A stretch of DNA of 64,000 nt from Leuctra nigra (lineage: Eukaryota; Arthropoda; Insecta; Plecoptera; Leuctridae). Each line of letters opens with the position of its first letter. Position 1 is the stretch's first letter. Of the stretch, positions 33,448-62,200 are shown one piece after another. A program made the translations under genes and the position numbers. Under the pieces are notes generated by a model. It worked only from the letters and a program-made list of their open reading frames with translations, had not been told where the DNA came from and searched no databases. The DNA is taken from NCBI GenBank assembly GCA_934045905.1, contig OW203770.1:372001-436000 (forward strand), written 5' to 3'.

Positions 33448-33515
33448 ATGACGGAGCCGAAAAGCAGCAGAGACGTAGAGAATGAAGAACCATCTTCATC
33501 GGGTTCGACTTCGAG
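33448..33515 (+). CDS. NACHT-ankyrin gene, first coding exon
   Basis: A good acceptor (pyrimidine-rich tract ending TTCTGCAG, 33432) is followed by a 15-base leader, an ATG at 33448 and 22 codons rich in Ser, Glu and Pro (MTEPKSSRDVENEE...). The exon ends TCGAG|GTACGT at 33515/33516 after two bases of a codon. The large exon at 40253 supplies exactly one base, making Arg and continuing into a serine run. The acceptor implies an untranslated exon further upstream. Linking it to the 40-kb exon rests on phase and continuity only; the intron between them is 6.7 kb. Confidence 0.55.
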
Positions 33516-36500
33516 GTACGTCATGCAGTGCTCTGCGAGGTAATCGGCAGATAAAGCCGTTACAATCACATTTCTTGTAATGTGAAGTGGGGCCGTGAAA
33601 GATGACAATTCGTTTTACACTTATCTAGTCGGGCGCTAGCTCGACGCTGCCAAGCACCGCTCTAATACAACGTGCGAGCTACTACCAGACTTATACTGCA
33701 AGCGCTTCGGGCCCGATTTCGGGGTGTCAGTACGCATGCAAGCATTTAGAAATGAAAGTTGAAAACCATGGTTATCGGGTATATTTAGCCACCTGACAAC
33801 ACCTAACCAAATATCAAAGTGCTGCGATCATCCCTTCGGGGTGAATTTTGGGCCTCAAACATGCAAGGATTGACTTTCATGTTAGTTAGTTAGTTAGTTA
33901 GGCACGGTCAATTTGTTTGCCCCTCTCCACAGGCTGAACGGTTTGTCCTAGAGAGTTGAAATTTGGCAGAGACATAGAGTCATATTTATAGCAGTGCCCT
34001 TTGAAAGAAAATCTGAAACATTTTGACCGGAAGTGAAGTTATTACAATTTTAAATTTAAAATATTTTAAAAGTCAAACGGGTCCATCGAGAGTTTTGAAA
34101 TTTGGCAACAATAAAGACAATGTATTGCTAGACACTCCACTTCAAGAAAAATCAATAAATTTAAACCGGAAGTGGGAAAATTATCAATATTTACGTTCCG
34201 CCCTTCTTCTTTGATACACTAAACAGCGGCTCTAATTCCCATCGGACTGATAGCTCATGTTAGGAAGGCAGCTGGCTTCGACATCTGCATAACACGTTCG
34301 ATTCCCGATCCCGGAAAACTTTTTTTTTCATATATTATTTTTTAATTTGTATAAGCGATGATACCTTCATGGATATATATTCAAATGAGACTACCAATGG
34401 ATGCTGTGAAGATCATCAATAGACCGAAACATCGCAATCGCGGCACGCCAGTTGCCATCGTGAACACTGAAGATATCAGGGAATCAGGAATTGCGCACGT
34501 CGTTTTACGCTCTACCTTTCTTCTTTGATATACTACACAGGTTTATATTTCAGTGTGGCGAATTGGCTCGGTCACATGAGGCAAGTGACTTCGATCACGG
34601 CGTTGCCGGGTTCGATCCCCGTAACAAACGTTTTATTTTTTATCTTTTTATTTACTTAAAAAATGTTTAACCTTCTTGTGTATATATTCAAAATGTTAAT
34701 CCGAATACATTCAACGATTACATAGCTACTCTTTTTAATATTATACTCATTGGACTCTAGTAATGATTGTCAATGTACACGTTGTACGTAAAGTTGTGCA
34801 ATAAAACAATTCGTGGTCATGCTAATCAACAGAATCTTGGTGGCTCAGTTACTAAACTAGAAACCACACAAAAAAGGTTCCATTACTGGGTGCATAAGGT
34901 TGTCACAGCTTTTAATTTCTCCGAATTATTTAATTATGTAAAATTCAGTTAATTAAGTAAATAGTAAAATTCAGTGAAGGCTCCATAACTAATATTCAGA
35001 GTATTAGGTGTTTACAACTTTTCATTTGTCACACTTATTTAATTATTTAAAATAGAGTTAATTTGTCAATATTGGTGGCTCAACAAGAAACAAGAACAAC
35101 ACGAAACAAGAAACCACACAAAAAGGCTCCATTACGTGCATCCATTACGTGATCACAACTTTAAGTTTCTAAAATAAATTTAATTATTTTAATTATGCAA
35201 ATTTGTCGATCTTGATGGTTCAGATACGAAACAAGAAACCACACAAAATGGCTCCATTACTAGGTTTATTAGGTGTTTACAACTTAGTAAAAATTATTTC
35301 ATTATTTCAGATGTTGTAATCTGTCAATCTTAGAAGCTCGGTTACAATAAACAAGAAACTACACTAAATGGTCCATGATAATTAATGGAAATCTGTGGGT
35401 ATGAGAGATTTAAATTTCATTTCATCATCCAACAATGCTTACGTTAAAAAGTTAGAATAATAAAACGCTTTTAAATTGTCATGATTTATTTCCAAACTGT
35501 GAGTCAAAGTCTCATCAAGTGACATTGTTTAATGGAAATAAATGAAACTGAAACTGATGTTCCTCCTAATCTGACACTAATAAAATAAACATTGGTTTTG
35601 ATGCGAACGTTATATACGAAAGTGGTCTGGCTTGTTTACATCGGCAATACAATAATATTCTTCAAGTATCTAGGCAATAGCACGAAGTTGTTTCCTGGTT
35701 TGAAAATATGAAAATATTATCTTCCACAGCAACATCACAAAACAATATAATAATCACTAAATAAGATCAGTGGACTAATTAAAATGCAAGCTCGATAACT
35801 GTTTACAAGTACCTATAGAAGAAGACAACAATACTAAATGGACATCGATCGTATTTGCCATGAACAAACAAATGTAAACATTAAGTTGACCTGACAGGGA
35901 GAGGCAGAGAGGTGGAGATGCCAGGTATAGGCCGGCCCATGCTATCCGTGTACATAGGCGAGTAAGGCGGGTAGCGTAAATTTCATCACCCGTCATACTC
36001 CTTCCCACCAGCACTATAAACACCAGGTGGCTCAGCTAGTTAATCTTAACTAAGTTCCTTTTAAGTTACATTGCCTTCCAAAAACCATCCGGATTTTATT
36101 TAAAATGTGTTGTAAACATCTGTAAGCCTGCACGCTTTACCAATTGAGTTTATACTTCGGAACTTTGACATAAAAGAGTGAACATGGGAGAATTTAAAAA
36201 TGAGGAAACGCATTTGCAATCATCTTTCGTGTACCTTTCAGTTTACCTAGTGGCGACAAATACGCGTTTTACGAGATGAACGCACAAATTCCGGTTTACA
36301 CCGGAACAATACACCTACAATTTACGTTATTCACATGACTCAAAGCTGTGAACTTTTAACAAATTATAATTTGATATAACTCAAATTCAACCAAAAGAAA
36401 TGGACCCTTTCGTTATACTAACTTCGGAACTATTGAAATAAAAACAGAAAACTTTAGACAAGAAGTGACGTTGTTGGCGTTAACTGTAATGATAGGTAAC

Positions 36501-39500
36501 ACTTAATGATCAGTGAAAGCTGCTATAAACTTATACCCCATATGACATGTTGTACAAAAACAAAAACTTGTAAAAAAAAACTGCCAAGCACCTTCCCACT
36601 TAAAACAATTGAGATCTAAAAGAAGGGCCAAGCAATAATATATTGTTTAAACATTTTCGCACTTAAAATTCGTGAAATCATTTCGCCCAGTTACTGCCGC
36701 CAAGCACAACACTAAAAACCTAATGTTGTGTCCAAATTTGAAGAATACAATCTAAGTGAACCATCATTGTAAATTTAACAAAATTATAAAAATTAAAAAC
36801 GACTTCAAAATAAATTTAAAATTGAAATTAAAAAAATTAAAAATAAAGCTTGGCGCATTGAATTTGCACCGACCATATTGTAGACTTCCTCTATCTTCTT
36901 CCTACTTTCTGTCTTTCTTCGGCTCCTGTATCGTCATCTTCTTTCTTATGTTGCCTTCTTCTTGACACAATGCGCCTAGCTTTATTTTTAATTTTTTTAA
37001 TTTCAATTTTAAATTTATTTTGAAGTCGTTTTTAATTTTTATAATTTTGTTAAATTTACAATGATGGTTCACTTAGATTGTATTCTTCAAATTTGGACAC
37101 AACATTAGGTTTTTAGTGTTGTGCTTGGCGGCAGTAACTGGGCGAAATGATTTCACGAATTTTAAGTGCGAAAATGTTTAAACAATATATTATTGCTTGG
37201 CCCTTCTTTTAGATCTCAATTGTTTTAAGTGGGAAGGTGCTTGGCAGTTTTTTTTACAATATTAGGTACTTAGGACACTGTAATTAGATTTGTATGATGT
37301 TTTTAGTTAGAATATATGCTATTCTACACAGGGACCCGAACCGGAACCGGAACCGGAACCTAGAACCGGTATGAACCTTTATAATTTCGGAACCAGAACC
37401 GGAACCGGAACCGTTATACATTTTTCACAAAGAACCGGAACCGGAACCCGAACCTTTATAATCAATTAGGTTCTTAAAGGTTCTTAAAGGTTCTTTAAGG
37501 TTCCTTCTTTTAATGAAAAATCATGTATATCACTTGGATATAATATTATTCACAAAGTTGTATAAAGTTTATTTTTTGAAAAAAAATTCAAAATGTATTT
37601 TTTGTAGTAATTTTTAATGCTTGATAAGAAATAATAATTCTTCATTTGCAAACACTGCTCGAGTTTTCAATTTTTGAATCTGACTACTGCGATGAGAACT
37701 GCATTGCCGACAATTTGAATATTATAGCTCAGGAAAAATGAATGTTTACGTTGTCTTATGGAGAAATTTGCAGCCACTATACTGTCTCCTCTGATATTTA
37801 CTCTGCGCACCATCCTGTGAATTTTATACAGACACTGCCTACACCTGTGCTTGCATTCATAGGAAAATCCAAATCCAATAATTCCATTAAATTTGACATT
37901 GGTAATTTACTGAAGTTTTATAATATATAGTTTGATTTAAAATTTTAGAACCGGAACCGGAACCCGGAACCTTTATGCAGGAACCGGAACCGAACCTTTA
38001 AGAATATTTGTTTCAGAACCGGAACCGGAACCCGAACCTTTATAAAATAAAATTGTGGAACCGGAACCGGAACCCGAACCTTTATTCATAAAGGTTCGGG
38101 TCCCTGATTACATTACAGTTGTTATTACACCTTCCATCAGCTTCAATCTTCACAAATACATCGCTTATTATGCGTTTTAAACATTGATGACATGTCACAT
38201 AGAACTTGAACTCATTACAGTCTTTAAATAAGTTTTAATGAGTTTAAATTACCAATTTAGGAATTAATATCCTTTGGTAGTCTGTTGTACTCTCAAATAC
38301 ATTTAAAAATTTAAATTACAGTGTCCTAGGTGCATAATATCATTGAAAAACGAATTGTCATCTTTCTCGGCCTTTCACAGTTGCCCATTTCTTGCAGGCA
38401 GTGATGATTTCAGACATATTATTCGGGGGGGGGGGGGGGGGCTAATGCAAAGCTGGGGTGCAAAATGTAATCTGGAGAGGGGGGTGGGTGTACCCAAACG
38501 TAGTCCGCTTAGGAACTACTTTCATCATGGGGGGGGGGGGGGGGGGGATTGCGACAGTCAGGAGGGGGGTCTGGGGGGCAAAGCTCCCAGCCTTAGCCCC
38601 GCAGGGCGTTATTTAGAATAATTAAACCAGTTAAAAGTGATTCTGGGGCTTTAAAATGCACAAACCGAAGCAAAAAAACTCTTTTTGGAATATAAACATT
38701 TTAAAATCGATTCTGGGATGCTCTCAAATTACAAATTCTCAAATTACAGCAAAAGCTCACTATTTTTCGTTTTAATGAAAACATAATTCAAGAATTTTGT
38801 TTCTATAAAAGTACCTTCTCGGGTAATATACATAGGTATTAGTAGGTAGACATCTAAAATACTTTATTTCTGGATATGGATCATGTTTCACAGTTATATT
38901 TAAACAACGTTTCGATATGGTTTCGTCTAGATACATATCATATTTTACACATTTCCAGCCCAATCGGTCAAGAATTTACATACTTATTGCTATTTTAAGG
39001 CCGGTCATATATTTTTTCCCGCCAAAAGCGATTTGAAGCGGTTTTCGAGCGAAATACAAAATATAAACGACTATATTTAACAAACGGTTATGAAAATCGA
39101 AAAAGCAAGACCGAGGTGACATGTATTGAACCTTTATCTACATTTTCATCGCTTCTGTCATAACTTTGCTCCTACTATGTGGTCAGTATGTGTCGGGCAC
39201 GAAAACACTATAAGTAAATATACGGAGTGTTATCGTGCCCGACACATACTGACCACATAGTAGGAGCAAAGTTATGACAGAAGCGATGAAAATGTATATA
39301 AAGGTTCAATACATGTCACCTCGGTCTTGCTTTTTCGATATTCTTAACCGTTTGTTAAATATAGGTATTTATATTTTGTATTTCGCTCGAAAACCGCTCC
39401 AAATCGCTTTTGGCGGAAAAAAATATATTACCGCCCTTAAGTGTTTTGAATATCTGTCCAAAGAGATTGATGGACAAGTATAACATTTATGGTATTGGTC

Positions 39501-42500
39501 TGTATTATTGTTCCAGAGTGTTTATGGAAGTTGTAAGGAAATTTGGTAATAATGTAGTAAGTTTTCTTTGATTTAATGGATCGGGCTCGATTGGCGATGT
39601 CGTGCGAATCGGTGCTCGCTCATCAACGCGTTACACGGAGCGTTTTCCTAGTTTAGAGAATCTTAACTCGATATATTTTCTGGGACGTGCCTGTTTTACG
39701 CACCTATCACAGGATCCCGTTCAAAAGCTAGACACGAGACTGCTCTTATGACATTTTCAGATCGATTGGTTGAATTGTTTGCCATTGCAGGCGAATACAC
39801 AGAAAAACAAACCAGGGAGTAGGGACCGAGAAGAACCGTTATTTTTATAGGAACCGGAACCCTTATTAATATTAAATATTATTTGGGTTCTATAATTGAG
39901 CCTGGGTTCTTTAAATATTTAATTGCATTGATTTTTTAATTCATTGCTTTTCAAAATCTGAAATGATTTACTACCATTTACAGTTTTTCAAATAAATAAA
40001 CACCGAGTCAAATTAATGTTAGACATTTCTAAGCAAGTAAGTTCCCAAAAGTCGATTAAAAAAATTATTAATTGATTATTGTCTAAATTTGATGGAACCG
40101 ATTAGAACCCTTATGGAACCCAAATGGAACCGGAACCGTTATTCACTTGGGTTCCAGTCCCTGAAACAAACAAAAGATCGCACACAGAGGAAGAGTTGTA
40201 AGATCAGCGGTGACGCTCGCTCAGTATTTGTGATGTTTCTGTCTGTACTCAGGTCTTCTTCCAGCGTCATGAAATACGAGAAGACGCCCGGGACATCCGG
40301 CATACTAGGTCAGCAGTTTGAATACAAGATGGCGGCACTCGTGTTCCTGCGCGGAGTAAATCAGACATCTGGCTTGTACATGGGGACAAATGTCGCCGGC
40401 GCCGGAGCCTTTGATGACGTGGTATTTAAATACAAACATGATCCAGAGTTCCGGACCCTCTTCGTACAGTTCAAACATAATGAACCAGGAAACTTGATTA
40501 TTAAACTTGAGCAGCTTCTCAAACCATCTGGTGACTTCAGCATGTATAAATACTACAAGTCTTGGTGTGAAGTGGCGATGAAGGTAGAAAGTGAGGAAGG
40601 AAAGACACAGGGACTCTTTGGTAATAACTTCAGTAAATGTGAATTCCTTATTTTCACGAACGGCAAGATTGACAGGTCGTTGACTTCAGAAAGTCCTCAG
40701 AGAAATTATAGCAACACAGCTACATATTCATGCGCAACAAACAAGGATTATCCGCAATGTTATGCTTCTTACCTCAATGAAACAACAGTGAACAAGATCA
40801 AAGGTGCATGCGAGGAGCTGATGAGGAAATACAAAGATCTGAAAGATGATTCAACAGTTGTGAAGAAGAATGCCACGGAAAAGGATATGGAAGAAAACAA
40901 TGAGAAGAATCGGAAGGCAAAAGAACTGAAAGCTTGCATAAGGAAATACCCGGTTGAAGAGTTTCTGCAAAGTCTTCAATGGTTTACAGAGCAAGCTTCT
41001 GAGAAGGATCTGGTATCTCTCATTGAAGAAGAGATAAAGACAGCCATGGGGACAAGCGAGAAGGACACAGAGATGATTGCCAAGACTTTCGTAGAGAAGA
41101 TCAAACTTTGGTGGGAAAAAAATGAAAAAGAAAAGGACATAAAAAATGAAAAAGAAAAAGACATAAAAAATGAAAATGCGAAAGGAAAACAACAGGAAAA
41201 GGTAAAAGTAACATCAGATATTCTCACCGAGACTTCTCAGTTGTGGGAAGACATTGTTATCTCGCGGCTTAACTTGATGAATGAAGAGAAGAGGAAGGAG
41301 AAGGAAGCGTTGAACATCAACTTCACTGACCAAGAGATCAACTCATTCAACCAATCACTGTCCAGCAATGTGATTAACGTGACGTCACCACATTTCAAGT
41401 TAACTGGCGTTAAGATAAGTCAGTTGTTAGAGAAGAATCATGACAATAAGTACATCTTCATGACACAAGCATCTCTGTTGTCGAGGAAATCCGAGGTTCT
41501 GTGTTTGTGGCAGAGTGTGTGGTGTGACGTGTTGGTGGTAGAGTGCAGCACTGTCACTCAGTCACTTGTTGATGAGATAACCAGAGTCTCGCCAGGCAAG
41601 AAGCTGATTCTCCTCTCAGAGTCTGCGTTGCCAGGCTACCAACCACTCCAGGATGAGTTCAACTGGAACCAGCTGGAGGCGACGTCACAGAAGATGATTC
41701 TGGAGAAGAAAGTTGACTTCCAGGGGCGTGAAGTCAGCCTCGAGTCTGTGGTGGGGGAAAAGTGTTCACATTCTCTTGTCACTCAAGTACTTTCTCCCGA
41801 CACCAAGCTGTCATTCGGCAAGAAGATCCTTGACAATATCTCGTATTACATCCCTCGGAGCTTGCAGAGGTCAGATTATGTCAAAAAGGAAATCTTGAGT
41901 TCAATAGGTGATTATGTTATCATCAGCAATGTTAAAGAACAAGATGTCACCAGCTTGGAGGATTCTTACGGCATTAAGTTGAAGAAGCTGGATGAAAATC
42001 AAGACAATGTTTCTCATCGCTTCTACTGGACTGACAACACTTTCAACGCCGATACGTTCACAAGATTCTGTCAGAAGATTCCCGACAAGAATGTGCATTG
42101 GCTGTCAGTGGACCAGGACAATGATGTGTATTGGAAGCAATCATTCAACAACATGGATTGCATCAAGGAACACATTGACAAGAGTAAGAAGAGAATAATC
42201 ACTGCTGAAGACTTGAAAGACATTGTGAATGAGCGAGTTGTTCTCGTGGCTGCTGAACCTGGGATGGGTAAATCCACTTTCCTCAACAATGTGGTTCAAG
42301 TAGCTAAGAATGATGACAACTCTCTCTATGCAATTAGACTTGACTTAAATAATGTTACAAGACATCTGAAAGAACACGCAGAGTTGTATTTCACAGACCA
42401 ACAAAACATTACAAATTTCTTAATAGAAGAAGCTCGCAATTGTGACCTAGATGATGAAATTCTCCGATCACGATTGACACAGACAGGAACCGTCAATGTG

Positions 42501-45321
42501 TATTTAGACGGATATGACGAGATAAGTCCGTATTACAATGACAAAGTCACCAATATGATCAAGAGCATGATGAAACTGAAAGTTGGACAGATTTGGCTGA
42601 CATCTAGAAATGTAATGCGAGATCGTTTGGAAAGCGAACTTGCTTCAATCTGTTACTCAATGAAGCCATTCACTGATGAAGATCAAGTTAGTTTCCTTGT
42701 CAAGTTGTGGAACGTGAAATATTCAATCCAGATCGATGATACATCAAAAGAATTTGCTCAGAATCTTCTAAAAAAGGCTTCTGAATCATTCAGTGATAGA
42801 GACAGAGAGTTCACGGGGATTCCCCTGCAGTGCATGATGCTGGGAGAGGTGTTTGCTGAAGATGTTACAAGAGGGGATCTTAATCTTCCAAACAGGCTGG
42901 ATTTACTGCAGTTGTTTGAAACATTTGTATTTGAGAAAATTAATATACTTAATGAAGTCAAACTTCAAATTGACACCTCGAAACCGAGCCAAATTGAGAA
43001 CATTGGTCGAGAAAAAATGGAAATGATGGGAAGACACTCGAACGCAGCAATATTGGTGCTTCTCTCAGACAAAGAAATAGATATGCTAAAAGTAAACAAA
43101 AACGAAATATCAACCAAAGCTGAGAAGATTTTATCAGTTGGGAAAGAATATACTGGATTGATTGATGGAATGACCGACGGCGATCCAAGTTTCATCCATC
43201 GATGTTTCGCTGAGTACTTCCTGGCTTGGTGGCTGTCAGAGAACATATTGTCGAGCACTGATTTCATCGCACAGAAGCTGTTTGAACCTCGCTTTGTAAT
43301 CGTCCGCCAGTTCTTCGACCGACTTCTTGCGAGAGATTGTCCGTTGCACAACGCAGTGTTGAGCGCTGACAGAGAACAAGTTGAAGCCCTGCTGACATCT
43401 GGCGCTGACGTGAACCAGCTTGACAAGAGCCGCAGATCAGCACTCCATCTGGTGGTAGATTACTGCGACACTGACAGGGATATGCACTCTAGTCACTCTA
43501 AACTTGGTTTTCACGAGACAGCTGAAGCTAGCACCATGCAGTTGCTTCTAACTTATAATGCTGACGTCAACCTGACAGACAAAATACTGCAGGGAACTCC
43601 CGTGAGGTATGCAGACATAAGCAAGTTGTGGGGCAAAGTGGAACATCTCCTGAAGAACAAAGCAAACACTGATGGTTTGGTGGAGCTGAGAAAACTGATA
43701 AACACAGTGAAGAAGGAAGAAGATGCCATTGATCAAGGTAATTATCATGATGTGGGTAATTTTGTTAATCAAGATTATTACCCAAACTTAATTGTGTAAT
43801 TTTGGCTCAAGAAATAAATTACCCTTTTTTGGGTTATTTGGCTAATCTATTTAATTACTTTGACTCGGGTAATTTGGCTAGTCAAGGTAATCCCACACTT
43901 GGGTAATTTGGATCAACAAAGGAAATTACCCGGTTTTGGGTTATTTGGCTTATCTAATTAATTACTTTCACTTGGGTATTTTGGTTAATCAAGGTAATAA
44001 CCCACACTTGGGTAATTTGGCTTAACAAAGGTAATTGCCCTGACTTAAGAAATTTAACTAATCAAGTATTTATTACTAATCAAGGTAATTACCATGTTTT
44101 GGGTAATTTAGCTAATCAAGGTTATTACCAAGACTTAGGTAATTAGGCTAATTATAAGGTAGGTAATTAACTTGGTTTGAGTATTTTGTAACAAAATAAC
44201 CCTGAATCGGTAGGCCCCTGAACCCTGGGTACGTAATTACCCTGAATTTGTTTATTTGACATATTGTTGTCATTTCCCTGATTTTAGTGTTCAGTCTTTT
44301 CAATGTGTTTTTCTTGACTTGCTTTATATCTTCTATTCAAGGTTATTCCACTAGAGCAAAGGATGTGCCTAAGCGAAGAATACGCGATGCACGTTCTACT
44401 TTGTTTTCACTTGTTGCGCGCGGGTGTTTTCATATCCTGCAGTTCGCTGTGGATGAATGTGGATTAGAAGTAAACACGCGCCTGATAGACAGGAATGACA
44501 ATACAAGTTATCTTCTGCACGCCGCTGCTAAGAGTGGTCGTGAGGACTCTGTGAAGTTCTTGCTGAAGAGAGGAGCTGACATGATGCTACGCGGTGGGAA
44601 TTGGGAGATGCTACCCATACACGAGGCAGCAGAAGCAGGTAGTACCAACATAATGCCACTTCTCATTGAGTCAGGAATCAATGTCAAGGACAAGTTCATG
44701 CAGCGCACTCTCTTGCATTATGCAGCTGAGTCAGGACATCTCGACACAGTCAAGTGGCTGGTTGATGCAGGGGCTGAAGTAGACGCTAAGAATAAAGACA
44801 ATGAGACGCCTTTGCATTGGGCTGTGAGGAACAAACATGTAGAAGTCGCCAAGTATCTGATCGAGAAAGGAGCTGATGTGAAATCTAAGAACAGTTATGA
44901 CGTCACTCCCTTGCATTATGCAGCTAAGTCAGGGGAAATTAACACTGTCATGTTGCTCTTAAATGAAGGCGCAGAAGTAGACGCTAAGACATTGGGCAAT
45001 AAGACGCCTTTGCATTTGTTCTGCGAGTGGAAAAAACAAGTAGAAGTCGCCAAGTATCTGATCGAGGTCGGAGCTGATGTGAATGTTAAGGACAGTTATG
45101 ACGTCACTCCCTTGCATTATGCAGCTAAGTCAGGAGAAATTAACACTGTCATGTTGTTGTTAAATGAAGGCGCAGAAGTAGACGCTAAGACATTGGGCAA
45201 TAAGACGCCTTTGCATTTGTTCTGCGAGTGGAAAAAACATGTAGAAGTTGCCAAATATCTGATCGAGGCTGGAGCTGATGTGAATGCTAAGGACAGTTAT
45301 GACGTCACTCCCTTGCATTAA
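33448..45321 (+). CDS. NLR-like protein: nuclease-like domain, NACHT NTPase, ankyrin repeats (whole gene)
   Basis: Predicted join 33448-33515, 40253-43737, 44288-45321, about 1528 residues. Both introns have GT-AG ends and the phases agree (2 then 1), so the frame stays open throughout. Domains in order: a PD-(D/E)XK-like N-terminus (about residues 39-100: E46, D77/D78, Q95-x-K97), a lysine/glutamate-rich linker (about 225-355), an unrecognised region (about 390-650), NACHT (Walker A EPGMGKST near 690-698, Walker B LDGYDE near 774-779), a C-terminal NACHT helix FIHRCFAEYFLAWWL near 1002, then ankyrin repeats from about 1050. Known family logic: STAND NTPases bind a ligand through their repeats, oligomerise and activate the N-terminal effector. 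A role in immune sensing is inference. The TAA at 45319 may be a true end, an allele or a sequence error. Confidence 0.8.
34230..34335 (+). repeat. tRNA-like module 1 in first NACHT-gene intron
   Basis: TGATAGCTCATGTTAGGAAG (box A-like) and ACGTTCGATTCCCGATCC (box B-like), about 45 bases apart, followed by a T run. It resembles a tRNA-derived SINE head or decayed tRNA; no clean cloverleaf was found. Confidence 0.4.
34550..34640 (+). repeat. tRNA-like module 2, about 310 bp downstream
   Basis: GGCGAATTGGCTCGGTCAC (box A-like) and CCGGGTTCGATCCCCGTAAC (strong box B), followed by a T-rich stretch. Preceded, like module 1, by CTTCTTTGATA(T/C)ACTA(C/A)ACAG, so the two are tandem units of one repeat. 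Confidence 0.45.
34825..35385. repeat. Degenerate tandem repeat, unit roughly 125-180 bp
   Basis: AAACAAGAAACCACACAAAA, GGCTCCATTAC, GTTTACAACTTTT and TTAATTATTTAATTATG blocks recur about four times. 35386-36567 after it shows nothing recognised. Confidence 0.7.
36568..37255. mobile_element. Near-perfect foldback element, arms about 285 bp
   Basis: Left arm from ACTGCCAAGCACCTTCCCAC to TAAAGCTTGGCGCATTG is matched almost base for base by the inverted right arm (CAATGCGCCTAGCTTTA to GTGGGAAGGTGCTTGGCAGT), around a 110-bp pyrimidine-rich centre. The arm identity implies recent origin. Confidence 0.9.
37329..38106. mobile_element. hAT-like element built of GGAACC repeats
   Basis: Ends CAGGGACCCGAACC and GGTTCGGGTCCCTG. 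Subterminal arrays of GAACCGGAACCGGAACC surround an AT-rich core. The flanking octamers ATTCTACA and ATTACATT do not match, so the target duplication is unproven. Same family as 39813-40163. Confidence 0.75.
38400..38770. repeat. G-run remnants of hAT-like elements
   Basis: Two long G runs (38425-38440, 38530-38547), TAGGAACTACTTTCATCATG as in the 54775 element, and CCCCGCAGGGCG at 38598. No intact termini. Confidence 0.5.
38995..39440. mobile_element. Foldback MITE (GGCCGGTCATA family), copy 1
   Basis: TTAAGGCCGGTCATATATTT to ACCGCCCTTAA with arms of about 200 bp (TGACATGTATTGAACCTTTA; GTGGTCAGTATGTGTCGGGC). TTAA at both boundaries. Confidence 0.85.
39575..40250. mobile_element. Helitron-like fragments flanking exon 2
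   Basis: 39600-39651 is a CTAG end (CTGAGCG-type, here CGGAGCGTTTTCCTAG). 39700-39812 and 40164-40225 are an interior and opposite end in the other orientation (GTGACGCTCGCTCAG), split by a hAT-like insertion. The remnant reaches to within about 30 bases of the exon acceptor. Confidence 0.6.
39813..40163. mobile_element. Small hAT-like element with exact 8-bp duplication
   Basis: CAGGGAGTAGGGACCGAGAA start and GGTTCCAGTCCCTG end; AAACAAAC at 39805-39812 and 40164-40171. GGAACC-rich like 37329-38106. Its right part supplies the spurious upstream codons of the big open frame. Confidence 0.82.
40253..43737 (+). CDS. NACHT-ankyrin gene, main exon
   Basis: This is the longest coding exon in the window (1161 complete codons plus split codons). 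The acceptor is CTGTACTCAG at 40252 and the donor CAAG|GTAATT at 43737. It holds the nuclease-like region (G-x-Q-F-E-x-K then FDDVVF then FVQFKH), a lysine-rich stretch with a duplicated EKEKDIKN unit (41127-41170), the NACHT domain and three weak ankyrin repeats (from about 43330). The open frame extends upstream to 40089, but those codons lie in a hAT-like element and a Helitron-like fragment, so they are not counted. If the 33.4-kb exon does not belong here, the likely start is the ATG at 40269. Confidence 0.9.
43738..44287 (+). repeat. Short intron made of a splice-donor-like minisatellite
   Basis: The intron is an imperfect tandem array of units of the form GGGTAATTTGGCTAATCAAGG followed by TAATTACC. 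Each unit recreates a CAAGGTAAT sequence like the real donor at 43737 (for example near 43884, 43990, 44082). Its first 20 codons stay open by chance, giving a false C-terminus if the intron is retained. Confidence 0.75.
44288..45321 (+). CDS. NACHT-ankyrin gene, ankyrin exon ending at an in-frame TAA
   Basis: The acceptor CTGATTTTAG ends at 44287; exon start 44288 fits the phase-1 donor at 43737 (44357 also fits). After about 50 non-ankyrin residues come about eight 33-residue ankyrin repeats with the TPLHxAAxxG and (V/I)xxLLxxGAxV signatures. Two adjacent units of 201 bp (44891-45091 and 45092-45292) are nearly identical, a recent duplication. The third unit stops at TAA (45319-45321), where sister copies read TAT in the same position. 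Ankyrin arrays usually bind proteins; the ligand is unknown. Confidence 0.8.
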
Positions 45322-45573
45322 GCAGCTATGAGAGGACATCTCGACACAGTCAAGTGGCTGGTTTATGCAGGGGCTGAAGTAGACGCTAAGGACTGGCGCA
45401 ATGAGACGCCTTTGCATCGGGCTGTGGGGAACAAACATGTAGAAGTTGCCAAGTATCTGGTCGAGGCTGGAGCTGACCAGCACTGCGCTGATAGTGAAGG
45501 AAATACACCAGCAAGTCTAGCTCAAGATTTAGGTCCTGAGTTCATCGAGTGGCTCTCTACTAACAACAAGTAA
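45322..45573 (+). pseudogene. Ankyrin tail beyond the stop, still open in frame
   Basis: The frame continues for 83 codons after the TAA with two further ankyrin repeats (GHLDTVKWLV, ETPLHRAV) and a degenerate capping repeat ending at a TAA at 45571-45573. No frameshift is present. Either this is the genuine C-terminus and the TAA is an error or polymorphism, or it has been lost very recently. There is an ATG at 45328, but independent translation from it is unlikely. Confidence 0.6.
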
Positions 45574-56281: not shown

Positions 56282-59200
56282 CTGATAGCAACAAACATGC
56301 GTTAACTACATTTATCAGTTACATCACTTCAGGGACAAGAACATGAAATATTGACAAATAATGATGTTAGTGGGTTTTTGCTGTTAGTGAGTTTTTGCTG
56401 TTAAGAAGTTTTTGCTGTTAGCAAGATTTTTACTGTTAGTGAATTTTTGCTGTTAGTGAATTTTTATTGTTAGTGAGTTTTTGCTGTGAGTTCTTACTGT
56501 TAGTGAGGTTTTGCTGTTATTGAGTTCTTGCTGGTAGTGAGTTTTTACTGTTAGTGAGTTTTTGCTGTTAATACATTTTTGATGATAGTGACTTCTTGCT
56601 GTTAGTGAGTTCTTGCTGCTAGTGACTTCTTGCTGTTAGTGACTTCTTGCTGTTAGTGACTTCTGTCGTTAGTGACTTCTGTCGTTAGTGAGTTCTGTCT
56701 GTTAGTGAGTTCTGGCTGTTAGTGAGTTCTGTCTGTTAGTGAGTTCTGTCTGTTAGTGAGTTCTTGCTGTTAGTGAGTTCTGTCTGTTAGTGAGTTCTTG
56801 CTGTTAGTGACTTCTCGCTGTTAGTGAGTTTTGCTGTTAGTGACTTCTGTCTGTTAGTGACTTCTGGCTGTTAGTGAGTTTTTGCTGTTAGTGACTTTAT
56901 GCTGTTAGTTACTTCTGTCTGTTAGTGACTTCTGTCTGTTAGTGAGTCCTCACCGTCGGCCAGCTTGCGCAATACGTTGACGACGTCCGCCTGGTCGAGG
57001 GCGAGCTCGTCGGGCTGCGCTGCGGTGAAGGAATGAGTGGCCGCGACCTGCGGACAATCCCACTGCTCGTAGACGCTCTCGTCGGGGTTGTCGGAGGCGG
57101 GCTGTTGGACGGCAGACAGCCAGCGCTGCCGGTCAGACTCCAGCGCGCAAGACACAACCTACAAGATGAGACAAACACTAAGCGTTTTTTATTTTTTTTT
57201 CAAAAAATGGCAGAAATTTTATTATTTTTTTTTTCCCAAATAGTTGAAAAAATCCAGGGTTGGGTCAGTAGAATATTCCGCGTAGAAAATGGGTATTCTA
57301 CGCGTATATTCTACCGTAGAATATGTAATGTAGAATATTGATGTAGATGACATATTCTACACGTAGAATATTATTTTTAAGAAAAACATTGATTTGGATT
57401 ATAATGATCATTCTATTGATTTGTTTTCAATATAACAGCATTTTACTTTACTATGAGTACCTAGTACATAGTGATGTAATATTACCGGGAATTTATTGGG
57501 AATATACTACAGGGATGAGTAAACAATTTATAAGAGAAATCATTATTAAAGCATGTTTATGTTATGAGATGAAAATTCAAAACAACGCCCTGCGGGGAAA
57601 CAATTAGAATGTTGTTTGATTGAGTTGTTCATTTTCAAGTCCCAGAATCACGTCTTAGAAATTGTTGAAATTCTTTAAAAAACGCCCTGCGGGGCAACAT
57701 CAAGAGGGGGGGGGGGGGCTTCGTTCAAATAGCAGAATAAACTAGTAATTCAATTGATTATTTTTGGTGTATTATTTTATGATTGATTGCATGCTGTGGC
57801 TCGCATTATTATCTAATTTATAAATTTTTCGGAAATTGGCTCCGTCACCAAAAAAGGTTACCGACCCCTGTCATAAGATATCAAGAAAATTAGTGACAAA
57901 AAAGAGAATACTAAAAGGTAATGAGTAATGACATACCACAAAATAAGAACATTTATCATTTTAATTTATAATGAAAAAGTAAATTCCCGATTTGGGGAAT
58001 ATTCCCCAAATTTGCTCGGGAATATTCCCGGGAATCTGGGAATATTCCCGCTGGGCATCACTACTAGTACATAACAACTCTACCAAATTGTTGATACGAG
58101 AGGACCAACTACAATTTCTTACTTCTAAATTTAATATTAACATAAAAACGCAAAGTGATACTCAATCATCTCATTCGGACTTTGGTAGTTGCTTGCTGTA
58201 ATGCTGGATGCTGTAATCTAGATTCAATTATCCAAACATGAAGAATATGCAGTATGCACACACGTAGAAATTACATTCGATTCTACATGGTTTTCTTCAA
58301 TTAGAAATTATTTTGAAATGTTTTTTTAATTTCAATTTTTTACAATCTTGCTAATGGCTTTTCCTGCAATATATTCAAATCATCGTGTGTTCCCTATTGT
58401 AGATATAGGGGAAGTGTGCTATGAATGGGCTTATTAAAATTACGAGGTAGGATTGCTCTCTAATTTGCCAAAATTAAGGATGTGGCCGTTCCATACAAGA
58501 TAGAATATGAGTAGAATAAATAGAAAAGATTTGAACTCAACCTCTCTAAAGATAAGTTGAAAATAGGGCAACTAAAAAAGTAAAATAATATATTTTGGTT
58601 TATGCTAACTTTCCAAATTTTTCCACTGGCACTTAAAAAAAATATTCTACAATAATATTCTACATATTCTACATATTCTACGTGTTACTCTACGTGTATG
58701 TAGAAAATTAATATTCTACGCGTAATGACCCAACCCTGAAAAAATCTGATGATTTTTTCCAAAACTGTTGAAAAGATTTGACATGAGATTTTCTCGGCCA
58801 TTTTGGGAAAAATCAACAGATCTTTTCAACCATTTTGGAAAAAATAGTCAGATTTTTTCAACTATTTTTGAAAAAATTATCAGATTTTTTCAATCATCTT
58901 GGACAAAATTGTCTGATTTTTTTCGGCCATTTTGGAAAAAATTGCCAGACGTAAATCGTAGACGCTCTCGTCGGGGTTGTCGGAGGCCAGCGCAGAAGAC
59001 AACCGATGACACCAACGTATGTCATTAGATGAGACAAATAGCTTCATACAGCTCTCCTCGCTGTAATCATTAGGCTACGTATTACACCGTGGCGACCAAA
59101 CTAATCAACGTATCAGGCTGGAAGTTTCACAGATTATAAACAACATACCAAGGTTGGATTTGTGACAGTTTCAATAAAATAACTCTTGTAGAACAAATGT

Positions 59201-62200
59201 TACAGCTCTTTGAATTTGGTTGTCAATAAATCGATTAAAGGGAGTTAAAAAAAACACACAATGGACGAGCCACCGCTGTGAATTGTGATGATACCTATGA
59301 TCAAATCAGGCTGAAAATTTCACAGATTATAAACAACATAACAAGGTTCGATTTGTGAAAGTTTCAAAAACCTAACTTTTGTCTGAGAAAAGTTACAGCT
59401 GTTTGAATTTACCTATTGATAGAAATCGATTAAAAAAACCTTTGTATTCAGATAGCTGGACAATGCGTTGAAGATTGTCATATCACGTTGATGTACGTAC
59501 CATCTCTACAGTCTTGTTGTCGTGGTTACCGAGCAGAGTGAGCAGCATGGGATTGCGTCCCGCGTCGGCCTGCATCTTGACCGGTAGAGACGAGACAGCC
59601 TCCGTGCTGAGCTGGACCAGGTTGCGTGGACAGTAGTCGGTCACAGAGTAGCTCTCCTCGCTGCAGACATTAGAGCACGTATTACATCGCTGTCATCAGA
59701 CTGATCAACGTATCAAGCTGGAAGTTGCATAGAATATAAACAACATACTAAGGTTGGATTTGTGAAAGTTTCAAAACCATATCATTTGTAGGAGAAAAGT
59801 TACAGCTGTTAGAAGTTGGGTGTCAATAAATTGTTTATGTGGAGCTAAAAAAAATCATACAAGGGTCGAGCTATCATTGTGACCAAACGAATTAACAGAT
59901 CAAGCTGAAAGTTTTACAGAAAATAAACAACATAATAAGGTTTGATTTGTGAAAGTTTCAAAAACATAAAGTTTGTAGAAAAGGAGTTACAGCTCTTAGG
60001 ATTTGGTTGTCGAAATAGAGCTCAAAACAATCGCACAATGGGCGAGACATTCTGTGACAAAACTACAATACAAATCAGGCTAAAAATTTCACACAATATA
60101 AATAACACACTAAGGTTTAATATGGGAAAGTTTCAAAAACATAACTTATGTAGAAAGAAAGTACTTAAATAGTATAGGCTGTTCAATTTACGCTTACAAC
60201 GCCGTTTGGGTGTAATAACTAAGCAGCACCATCCAGACCTTCCATCTGAATTCACACTTTGCCAACCTAAACTCTTGAAATAAAATCCGCTAACTTGAAT
60301 GTGCCACCTAGTTCTAGCTGATTTTCATTTTGTAGTGTTGGTTCTAGCGTAGTACATCATTTTCGTTGCCATCTTCACCACCATAATCATTGTACAGAAG
60401 ATTTGAACAAACTGTAAGTACTAGTTAATAAGTTTTATTGACAACTTTGGGACATAATAATCCAGTTTACAGGACTAATATTAATTACTACATTTGACAG
60501 TTTCCTACAATTAATACTATCTAATAAACTATTAAATTTTCTCCAGCTTAGCGAGTCATTCATTTCTGACTTTAGAAGGTTGTTCCACAGTCGGGTGGCT
60601 CTGCCCAAATAGAGAATAGCGGTCAACACTTTTGGAGGATCTCTTCAAGTTGATCTTCCGGTGGTCAGTACGGCTGATGTAATGATCCTCGTCCATCCAC
60701 CCAAGTTACAGCTGTTAGAATTTGGATGTCGTAAAAAGAGGTAAAAAATCACACAATGGACGGCTATCGGTGTGACAAAACTATTGCACAATTCAAGCTG
60801 AAAATTTCACAGAATGTAAACAACATACCGAGGTATAATTTGTGAAAGTTTCAAAAAACATAACTTTCGTAGAAAAAAGTTACAGCTGTTAGAATATAGT
60901 TTCAAAAAAATATAGTCTGAAAAATCGAATATGTGGATCTCAAAAAAATAGTCAAAGGCCGAGGGATCGTTTTGAGGAAAATACTGAACGAATCTGACTA
61001 AAATGTTCACAGAATATAAAAAATATAACAAGGATTGATTTGTGTGAGTTTCAAAAACATTACTTTTGTAGCAGAAAAGGTACAGCAGTTAGAAATTGGT
61101 TGTCGTAAGAGTTAAAAAAAACACAATGTACAAGACAGTGCTGTGACAAAACTACTGAACGAATCAAGCTTAAAATAATACAGAACCCATAAAAAACACT
61201 CCGTGTAAAAATACCAGCCAATTCTCTTCAACTATAAAAAAATAGAAGAAATCTAAAAATTCAGCACTGAAAAGTATAGTGATATCAAAAAATGGGCCAA
61301 GTCAAAACTTAATTTTAGAAACCAAAATATACTTGGCGCATCGTTTTTAAGGGCATTACTATAGGTATATTATATATATATATATATTTAATACCAACTG
61401 CAAATTGAAAAGATTTGCCTACTGTGGGGATCGAACCCACGTCCCTGAATTGCCGGTCCAGTGCTCTAACCACTAAGCTAAGCAGGCTATTCAATCTGCA
61501 GTGCAGATTGAATCTCCACTGCAGATTGAATAGCCTGCTTAGCTTAGTGGTTAGAGCACTGGACCGGCAATTCAGGGACGTGGGTTCGATCCCCACAAGG
61601 CAAATCTTTTCAATTTGCAGTTGGTATTAAATATCATCACCCTCTCTGAGGTCATCAGAAAAAACCATGTTAGTCATATATATAATATATTATATATTCA
61701 GGTACACTCCCCCAAATAATAAACGGTACTTGGTACAAAACGTATTGGCTGCTGGGCCGGTTCCTTGACAATCAATCCTTGTTCTTATCAATGAAATCAG
61801 AGCTCACCTAAAAGAGTTAGATAATGCGTTAGAACTGACTTCATGGGATGATGCCATCAAACATTAATCAGTCAATTCATTTTCTTTCGAGTACCGTTTA
61901 TTATTTGGGGGAGTGTACATTTGATTTTTGACATATACTTCTATACTATTTATACACGATGCGCCAAGTATATTTTGGTTTCTAAAATTAAGTTGTGACT
62001 TGGCCCATTTTTTGATATCACTACTTTTCAGTGCTGAATTTTTAGATTTCTTCTATTTTTTTATAGTTGAAGAGACTTGGCTGGCATTTTTACACGAAGT
62101 GTTTTTTATGGGGATATCACTCATTTTTTTAGTTTATTTACATAACTTGTAACACATATCGGAGCAACAATGACTAATTCCTTTAAAAAAATAAGCTATT

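Follow-up and report, generated by a model that had tools for sequence, protein, structure and literature searches.

The 64,000-nucleotide stretch of the Leuctra nigra genome analysed here (contig OW203770.1, positions 372,001 to 436,000; hereafter the window, with positions counted from its first letter) carries a gene whose product would join a predicted Cap4/DUF4297-type nuclease domain to an animal-NLR-type NACHT ATPase and ankyrin repeats, and which we read, with a probability of roughly 0.6, as an NLR-like defence switch with a nuclease effector. The best explanation of the data, held with the same confidence, also counts it among the NLR-like switch proteins of a large family, most of whose copies are intact. 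An NLR-type protein with a nuclease-like effector had been proposed in an earlier note on this DNA, and the predicted fold, motif conservation and architecture presented below support that proposal; sensing and an immune role are what we infer. It is through the ATPase that the anti-phage STAND proteins of bacteria have so far been linked to the NLRs of animals, the effectors of the two being different, and arthropods are often called poor in NLRs.

The predicted gene comprises three exons (Table 1), the last running from 44342 through its stop codon at 45321, joined by GT-AG introns with the frame kept, and encodes a product of 1510 residues laid out from N to C terminus as nuclease-like domain, alpha/beta linker, NACHT and ankyrins. 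Its main exon lies in a plus-strand reading frame at 40041-43799 that runs for 1252 codons without a stop, and all the motifs quoted in the earlier note proved real and are contained in that single frame (GQQFEYK at 40308, FDDVVF at 40410, FVQFKH at 40461, EPGMGKST at 42255, LDGYDE at 42504 and FAEYFLAWWL at 43206). A start at 33448 is plausible from the sequence: the first exon with its GT donor splices in frame, phase 2, onto the acceptor at 40252/40253, and in several paralogues, e.g. L007, L015, L022 and L028, acceptor-like sites directly before the main exon were seen by eye. The frame does not extend to 45573 as the note had it, since an in-frame TAA closes it inside the ankyrin array, at a position where two adjacent repeat copies carry TAT (by eye). 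The claim of more than ten ankyrin repeats depends on the part beyond the TAA, since before it Pfam recognises eight stretches in the last exon and one in the main exon; and the one gene described there is a real locus but one member of a very large family. The short TTGGGTAATT-like repeats that fill intron 2 look, by eye, like splice donors.

As the earlier note had supposed, structure prediction gives the N terminus the fold of a DUF4297/Cap4-type nuclease domain. The AlphaFold 2 (AF2) model and its comparison with PDB structures indicate an alpha-beta-beta-beta-alpha-beta core together with the helical extension typical of that family, and the E...D...(E/Q)xK residues of such nucleases are present. 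We assign the domain as a nuclease because of the PADLOC matches of the cut-out domain together with the predicted fold, and nuclease activity is what we infer for it. The PADLOC Cap4-type and LmuA models match a minority of members, with best E values of about 1.5e-4 to 4e-3; the match of the SAVED_PDDEXK model to the window member is confined to model positions 14-105 of 483, and neither Pfam nor PADLOC scans of the main exon gave a SAVED match. Pfam scans likewise gave no CARD, PYD or death-fold N terminus, the position at which the nuclease fold is predicted instead.

The genome (536 Mb in 144 contigs) holds many related genes. Searched with the main exon, it yielded 90 matched pieces in 40 loci on eleven contigs (40 scored of 367 candidates), and by our own reading of the matches 39 of these 40 loci also match the N-terminal part, the exception being C12:26035130. 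With the first 300 residues as query, scoring covered 131 of 199 candidates and gave 174 matches; among the 150 of these that were listed there are at least 128 N-terminal loci on 13 contigs, counted as such because their matches start within the first 30 residues (a locus being a listed match that starts by residue 30, with 7 of the 128 ending before residue 120). Family members are locally clustered, for example at 20.21-20.26 Mb of contig C11, and a loose cluster occupies 153,990-820,670 at the start of the window's contig (C9), with members at about 154, 314, 412 (the window gene), 558, 760 and 820 kb. That the window copy is a decaying pseudogene, activity being left to other copies, strikes us as improbable: the TAA in its ankyrin array and the in-frame stop found in a matched piece of 5 of the 40 scored loci speak for decay, but the exon encoding nuclease and NACHT is open over its 1252 codons with motifs intact, and the TAA removes just the last 83 codons.

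Residue conservation was assessed over 83 loci, namely the window gene, 22 near loci and 60 others chosen roughly in order of score with the motifs ignored in the choice; about 45 of the 128 loci were omitted, among them short rows, near-duplicates and the lowest-scoring, and L005, whose reading frame is interrupted between N-terminal portion and remainder, was excluded (its piece retains E, FDD and QLKH). The predicted catalytic E, D, Q and K fall within the seven best-kept of 130 columns, which is why we take their conservation to be more than chance (counts in Table 1, the Asp being the second of FDD). N28, F23 and K7 are as well kept, against a median column conservation of 0.54, and the first D of FDD is found in 79 loci and the H after QxK in 77. 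In a 46-row cross-species alignment D37 and Q54 are invariant, with E and K at 90% or more. The earlier expectation that E, D and QxK would be kept is thus borne out in the paralogues and, among other arthropods, in most of the homologues, but fails for a weevil protein without the Glu, and P0002 and P0015 start at or after that residue. Nuclease-core ratios of nonsynonymous to synonymous substitution rates (dN/dS) were 0.11, 0.26 and 0.29 in the three pairs closest by NACHT dS, among the 25 pairs listed of 95 under the dS limit, and point to mostly purifying selection on the family's nuclease core.

A number of observations, to which the TAA described above belongs, weigh against a nuclease effector at work in the window protein. 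The structure models were built on alignments of just 11 and 10 sequences, and the three best Foldseek rows reach TM-scores of just 0.23-0.47. The PADLOC matches of the window's own domain are weak (E 0.0032 and 0.018), some members also match unrelated PADLOC models (Cas11a, Cmr5, GajA and others), and neither the whole main exon nor five whole homologues matched a PADLOC nuclease model, ankyrin, ATPase or other models being found instead. Searches with the N-terminal domain gave nothing convincing in Pfam or NCBIfam, no nuclease profile of Pfam being matched at E up to 1, and no notable match among PDB sequences. Four of the 83 copies are altered at a predicted catalytic position (L031 E to K, L007 Q to V, L030 K to Q, L032 K to T), the weevil protein P0004 has Q where the Glu is expected, and the core dN/dS between the window gene and its closest relative is higher, at 0.41. 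These five substituted proteins would also suit a nuclease fold serving as a non-enzymatic platform for nucleic-acid binding or signalling, with the killing done by downstream partners as in animal NLRs, which signal mostly through adaptors; against such a platform stand the rank of E, D, Q and K among the best-kept columns of the domain and the exceptionless D and Q across species, and we consider it unlikely.

C-terminal to the nuclease-like domain, the alpha/beta linker is retained throughout the family, its history weakly tied to the adjoining modules. The NACHT domain named in the earlier note scores 29.8 bits in Pfam against a cut-off of 26.7, its key residues are intact in 23 of 23 loci, and, as expected of an animal NLR, intact Walker A and B motifs are accompanied by a winged-helix core. 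In one comparison the NACHT part fitted animal NLRs best; a profile of the pre-ankyrin part searched against PDB sequences found nothing below E 0.16, the top row being rabbit NOD2. We use the term NLR-like because ankyrins occupy the place of the C-terminal leucine-rich repeats of animal NLRs.

Table 1. Predicted features of the NLR-like gene, in window positions
Feature	Position	Strand	Basis or remark
Predicted coding exon 1 (MTEPKSSRDVENEEPSSSGSTS..)	33448..33515	+	phase-2 donor GTACGT
Main coding exon: nuclease-like domain, alpha/beta linker, NACHT, first ankyrins	40253..43737	+	
DUF4297/Cap4-type PD-(D/E)XK nuclease-like module	40269..41177, core about 40308-40700	+	AF2 model, PDB comparison, PADLOC profiles
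Predicted catalytic Glu (GQQFE)	40320..40322	+	E in 82/83 loci
Predicted catalytic Asp (FDD, second D)	40416..40418	+	D in 83/83 loci
Predicted catalytic Q-x-K	40467..40475	+	Q in 82/83, K in 81/83 loci
Alpha/beta linker module	41205..41702	+	model blocks 321-500, pLDDT 81-93
NACHT ATPase; Walker A 42255-42278, Walker B (DGxDE) 42504-42521	42234..42704	+	Pfam PF05729, E 6.5e-7
Helical/winged-helix part of NLR-type STAND core, including FAEYFLAWWL; limits approximate	42705..43310	+	
Intron 2, GT..AG, rich in TTGGGTAATT-like repeats	43738..44341	+	
Last coding exon, ankyrin repeats	44342..45318	+	Pfam Ank, E 7.1e-68, 8 stretches
TAA in frame within ankyrin array	45319..45321	+	
Open continuation of ankyrin frame past TAA, 83 residues	45322..45573	+	

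Comparison of the copies with one another suggests that these modules have not always travelled together. In several pairs the core dS is near-saturated or saturated, yet linker and NACHT dS stay at 0.15-0.3, and DNA identity between the window gene and L007 is 29-72% to about residue 300 (counted from GQQ), 83-98% from 301 to about 850, then 57-76% and finally up to 92%. Over 23 loci, pairwise core identity tracks that of residues 126-290 (rho 0.65); against residues 300-465, residues 466-630, the NACHT and the part that follows, rho is 0.02, 0.08, 0.11 and 0.09, values reached in 203, 111, 44 and 94 of 500 permutations, respectively. Residues 126-290 are weakly correlated with later parts (rho 0.17-0.31), as are 300-465 with 466-630 (0.26), while segments from 466 onward are mutually consistent (0.81-0.87). 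Saturation of identity could depress rho, but leaves the sharp break between the window gene and L007 unexplained. Judged from the sequences, the nuclease-core and NACHT histories appear largely unlinked, and nuclease, linker and NACHT modules have probably been swapped among dispersed copies through gene conversion or recombination; such exchange would aid the diversification of a repertoire of this kind. Apparent swapping, together with the clustering of some copies on a chromosome arm (the C9 and C11 groups above), would also suit an active nuclease with an internal target, transposons or damaged nuclear DNA, and hence genome policing in place of pathogen defence; however, the closest solved nucleases are anti-phage effectors and NACHT with repeats is typical of pathogen sensing, and we hold genome policing to be quite unlikely.

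Related proteins occur beyond Leuctra, and the species named here are a lower bound because about 8000 homologue candidates were scored. Homologues were found in Periplaneta (P0001), Blattella (P0013, P0014), Daphnia (P0005-P0007) and the weevil Cylas (P0004), in addition to P0002, P0009, P0015 and P0016, and the N-terminal domain is present in cockroach, weevil and Daphnia proteins. Blattella P0014 retains Q and K in the form QLKY, and P0004-P0007 have QAKH; a narrow pattern, which also misses the QAKH form, detected no nuclease motif in P0003, P0008 and P0010-P0012. In weevil P0004 an OTU protease-like domain precedes the nuclease-like one. P0009 is without the nuclease motif by both pattern search and eye; as judged by eye, it keeps linker and NACHT, the position of the nuclease being taken by ankyrin-like sequence and a metallopeptidase-like HELTH motif, a possible effector swap. 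P0016 carries the N-terminal domain with E, FDD and QVKH (31% identity over 9% of the query), followed by an NB-ARC-TPR part that resembles bacterial plasmid proteins; among the 8 of 190 rows listed, matches of whole P0016 to plasmid proteins start at residue 284 or later and are therefore silent on the source of the nuclease.

Searches with a reach limited to close relatives gave no relative, prokaryotic or viral, among viral contigs (155 stretches, one pattern), genome contigs (353 stretches, one pattern; 13 stretches for the P0016 query) or plasmids. The presence in insects and Daphnia of a bacterial-type effector combined with an animal-NLR-type chassis fits either an old acquisition or repeated transfer. 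We give almost no credence to an assembly error that placed DNA of a bacterium or symbiont in an animal contig: this kind of nuclease is known best from bacteria, but the gene has GT-AG introns and lies on a 30.8 Mb contig, the 40 scored loci are dispersed over eleven contigs, and NCBI-named homologues come from insects and Daphnia, so that contamination, which the earlier note had already thought unlikely, was rejected.

In the switch that we propose, the ankyrins would bind a ligand derived from a pathogen or from damage and thereby free an ADP-bound NACHT, which would oligomerise and gather the nuclease domains; these in turn would cut nucleic acid, most likely double-stranded DNA, whether the invader's or the cell's own. 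By analogy, the scheme would work as bacterial Avs proteins do, with an animal NLR as its chassis. More broadly, we see an even chance that some arthropods possess an 'animal Avs' set of more than 100 NLR-like receptors that act directly through Cap4-type nucleases, without adaptor signalling, and are diversified by module swapping. In this large family the effector itself would be of the bacterial nuclease type and the core of the animal NLR type; if active, such an effector would provide both a direct-acting nuclease arm of arthropod intracellular immunity and a testable case of effector passage between bacterial and animal immunity.

Outside this gene, the window holds an exon-like stretch at 56955-57160 (minus strand) whose translation is reminiscent of the PH-SH3 part of an ephexin-type RhoGEF, and, at 61416-61602, a minus-strand tRNA-Ala (GGC) followed 45 bases on by a plus-strand Rfam tRNA match missed by ARAGORN. 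Elsewhere in the genome, L089 (G000:C13:51651552-51652892) is a COX1-like copy of full length, lying on a contig of 51.7 Mb; another lies on C144, and COX1 fragments occur as well. One COX1 copy reads through without a stop in the invertebrate mitochondrial code, and the extra copies may be nuclear mitochondrial insertions or misassembly.

Set beside known systems, the predicted protein combines features of several. The plan of an N-terminal effector, a STAND core and C-terminal repeats is common to bacterial Avs (Avs3, PDB 8dgc) and the window protein. The nuclease parts of CBASS Cap4, Lamassu LmuA, HerA-DUF4297 and Hachiman appear, in the VIA-align rows for the modelled structure, to share the fold of the window domain; CBASS Cap4 differs in its SAVED sensor, which had no match in the main-exon scans. 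Animal NLRs such as NLRP3, NOD2 and NLRC4 begin with a CARD, PYD or death fold and end in leucine-rich repeats, whereas the window protein is nuclease-like at the one end and has ankyrins at the other. Shrimp LvNLRC, a crustacean NACHT protein (PMC12370184), has the NACHT in common with it. P0016 is alike in the N-terminal domain but has NB-ARC and TPR where the window protein has NACHT and ankyrins. We know of no report of this combination in animals, and found no description of such an architecture in the literature searched, whose coverage is thin for subscription papers, so that an earlier report is possible. Each part is already of a known kind; any novelty would lie in their combination in animals.
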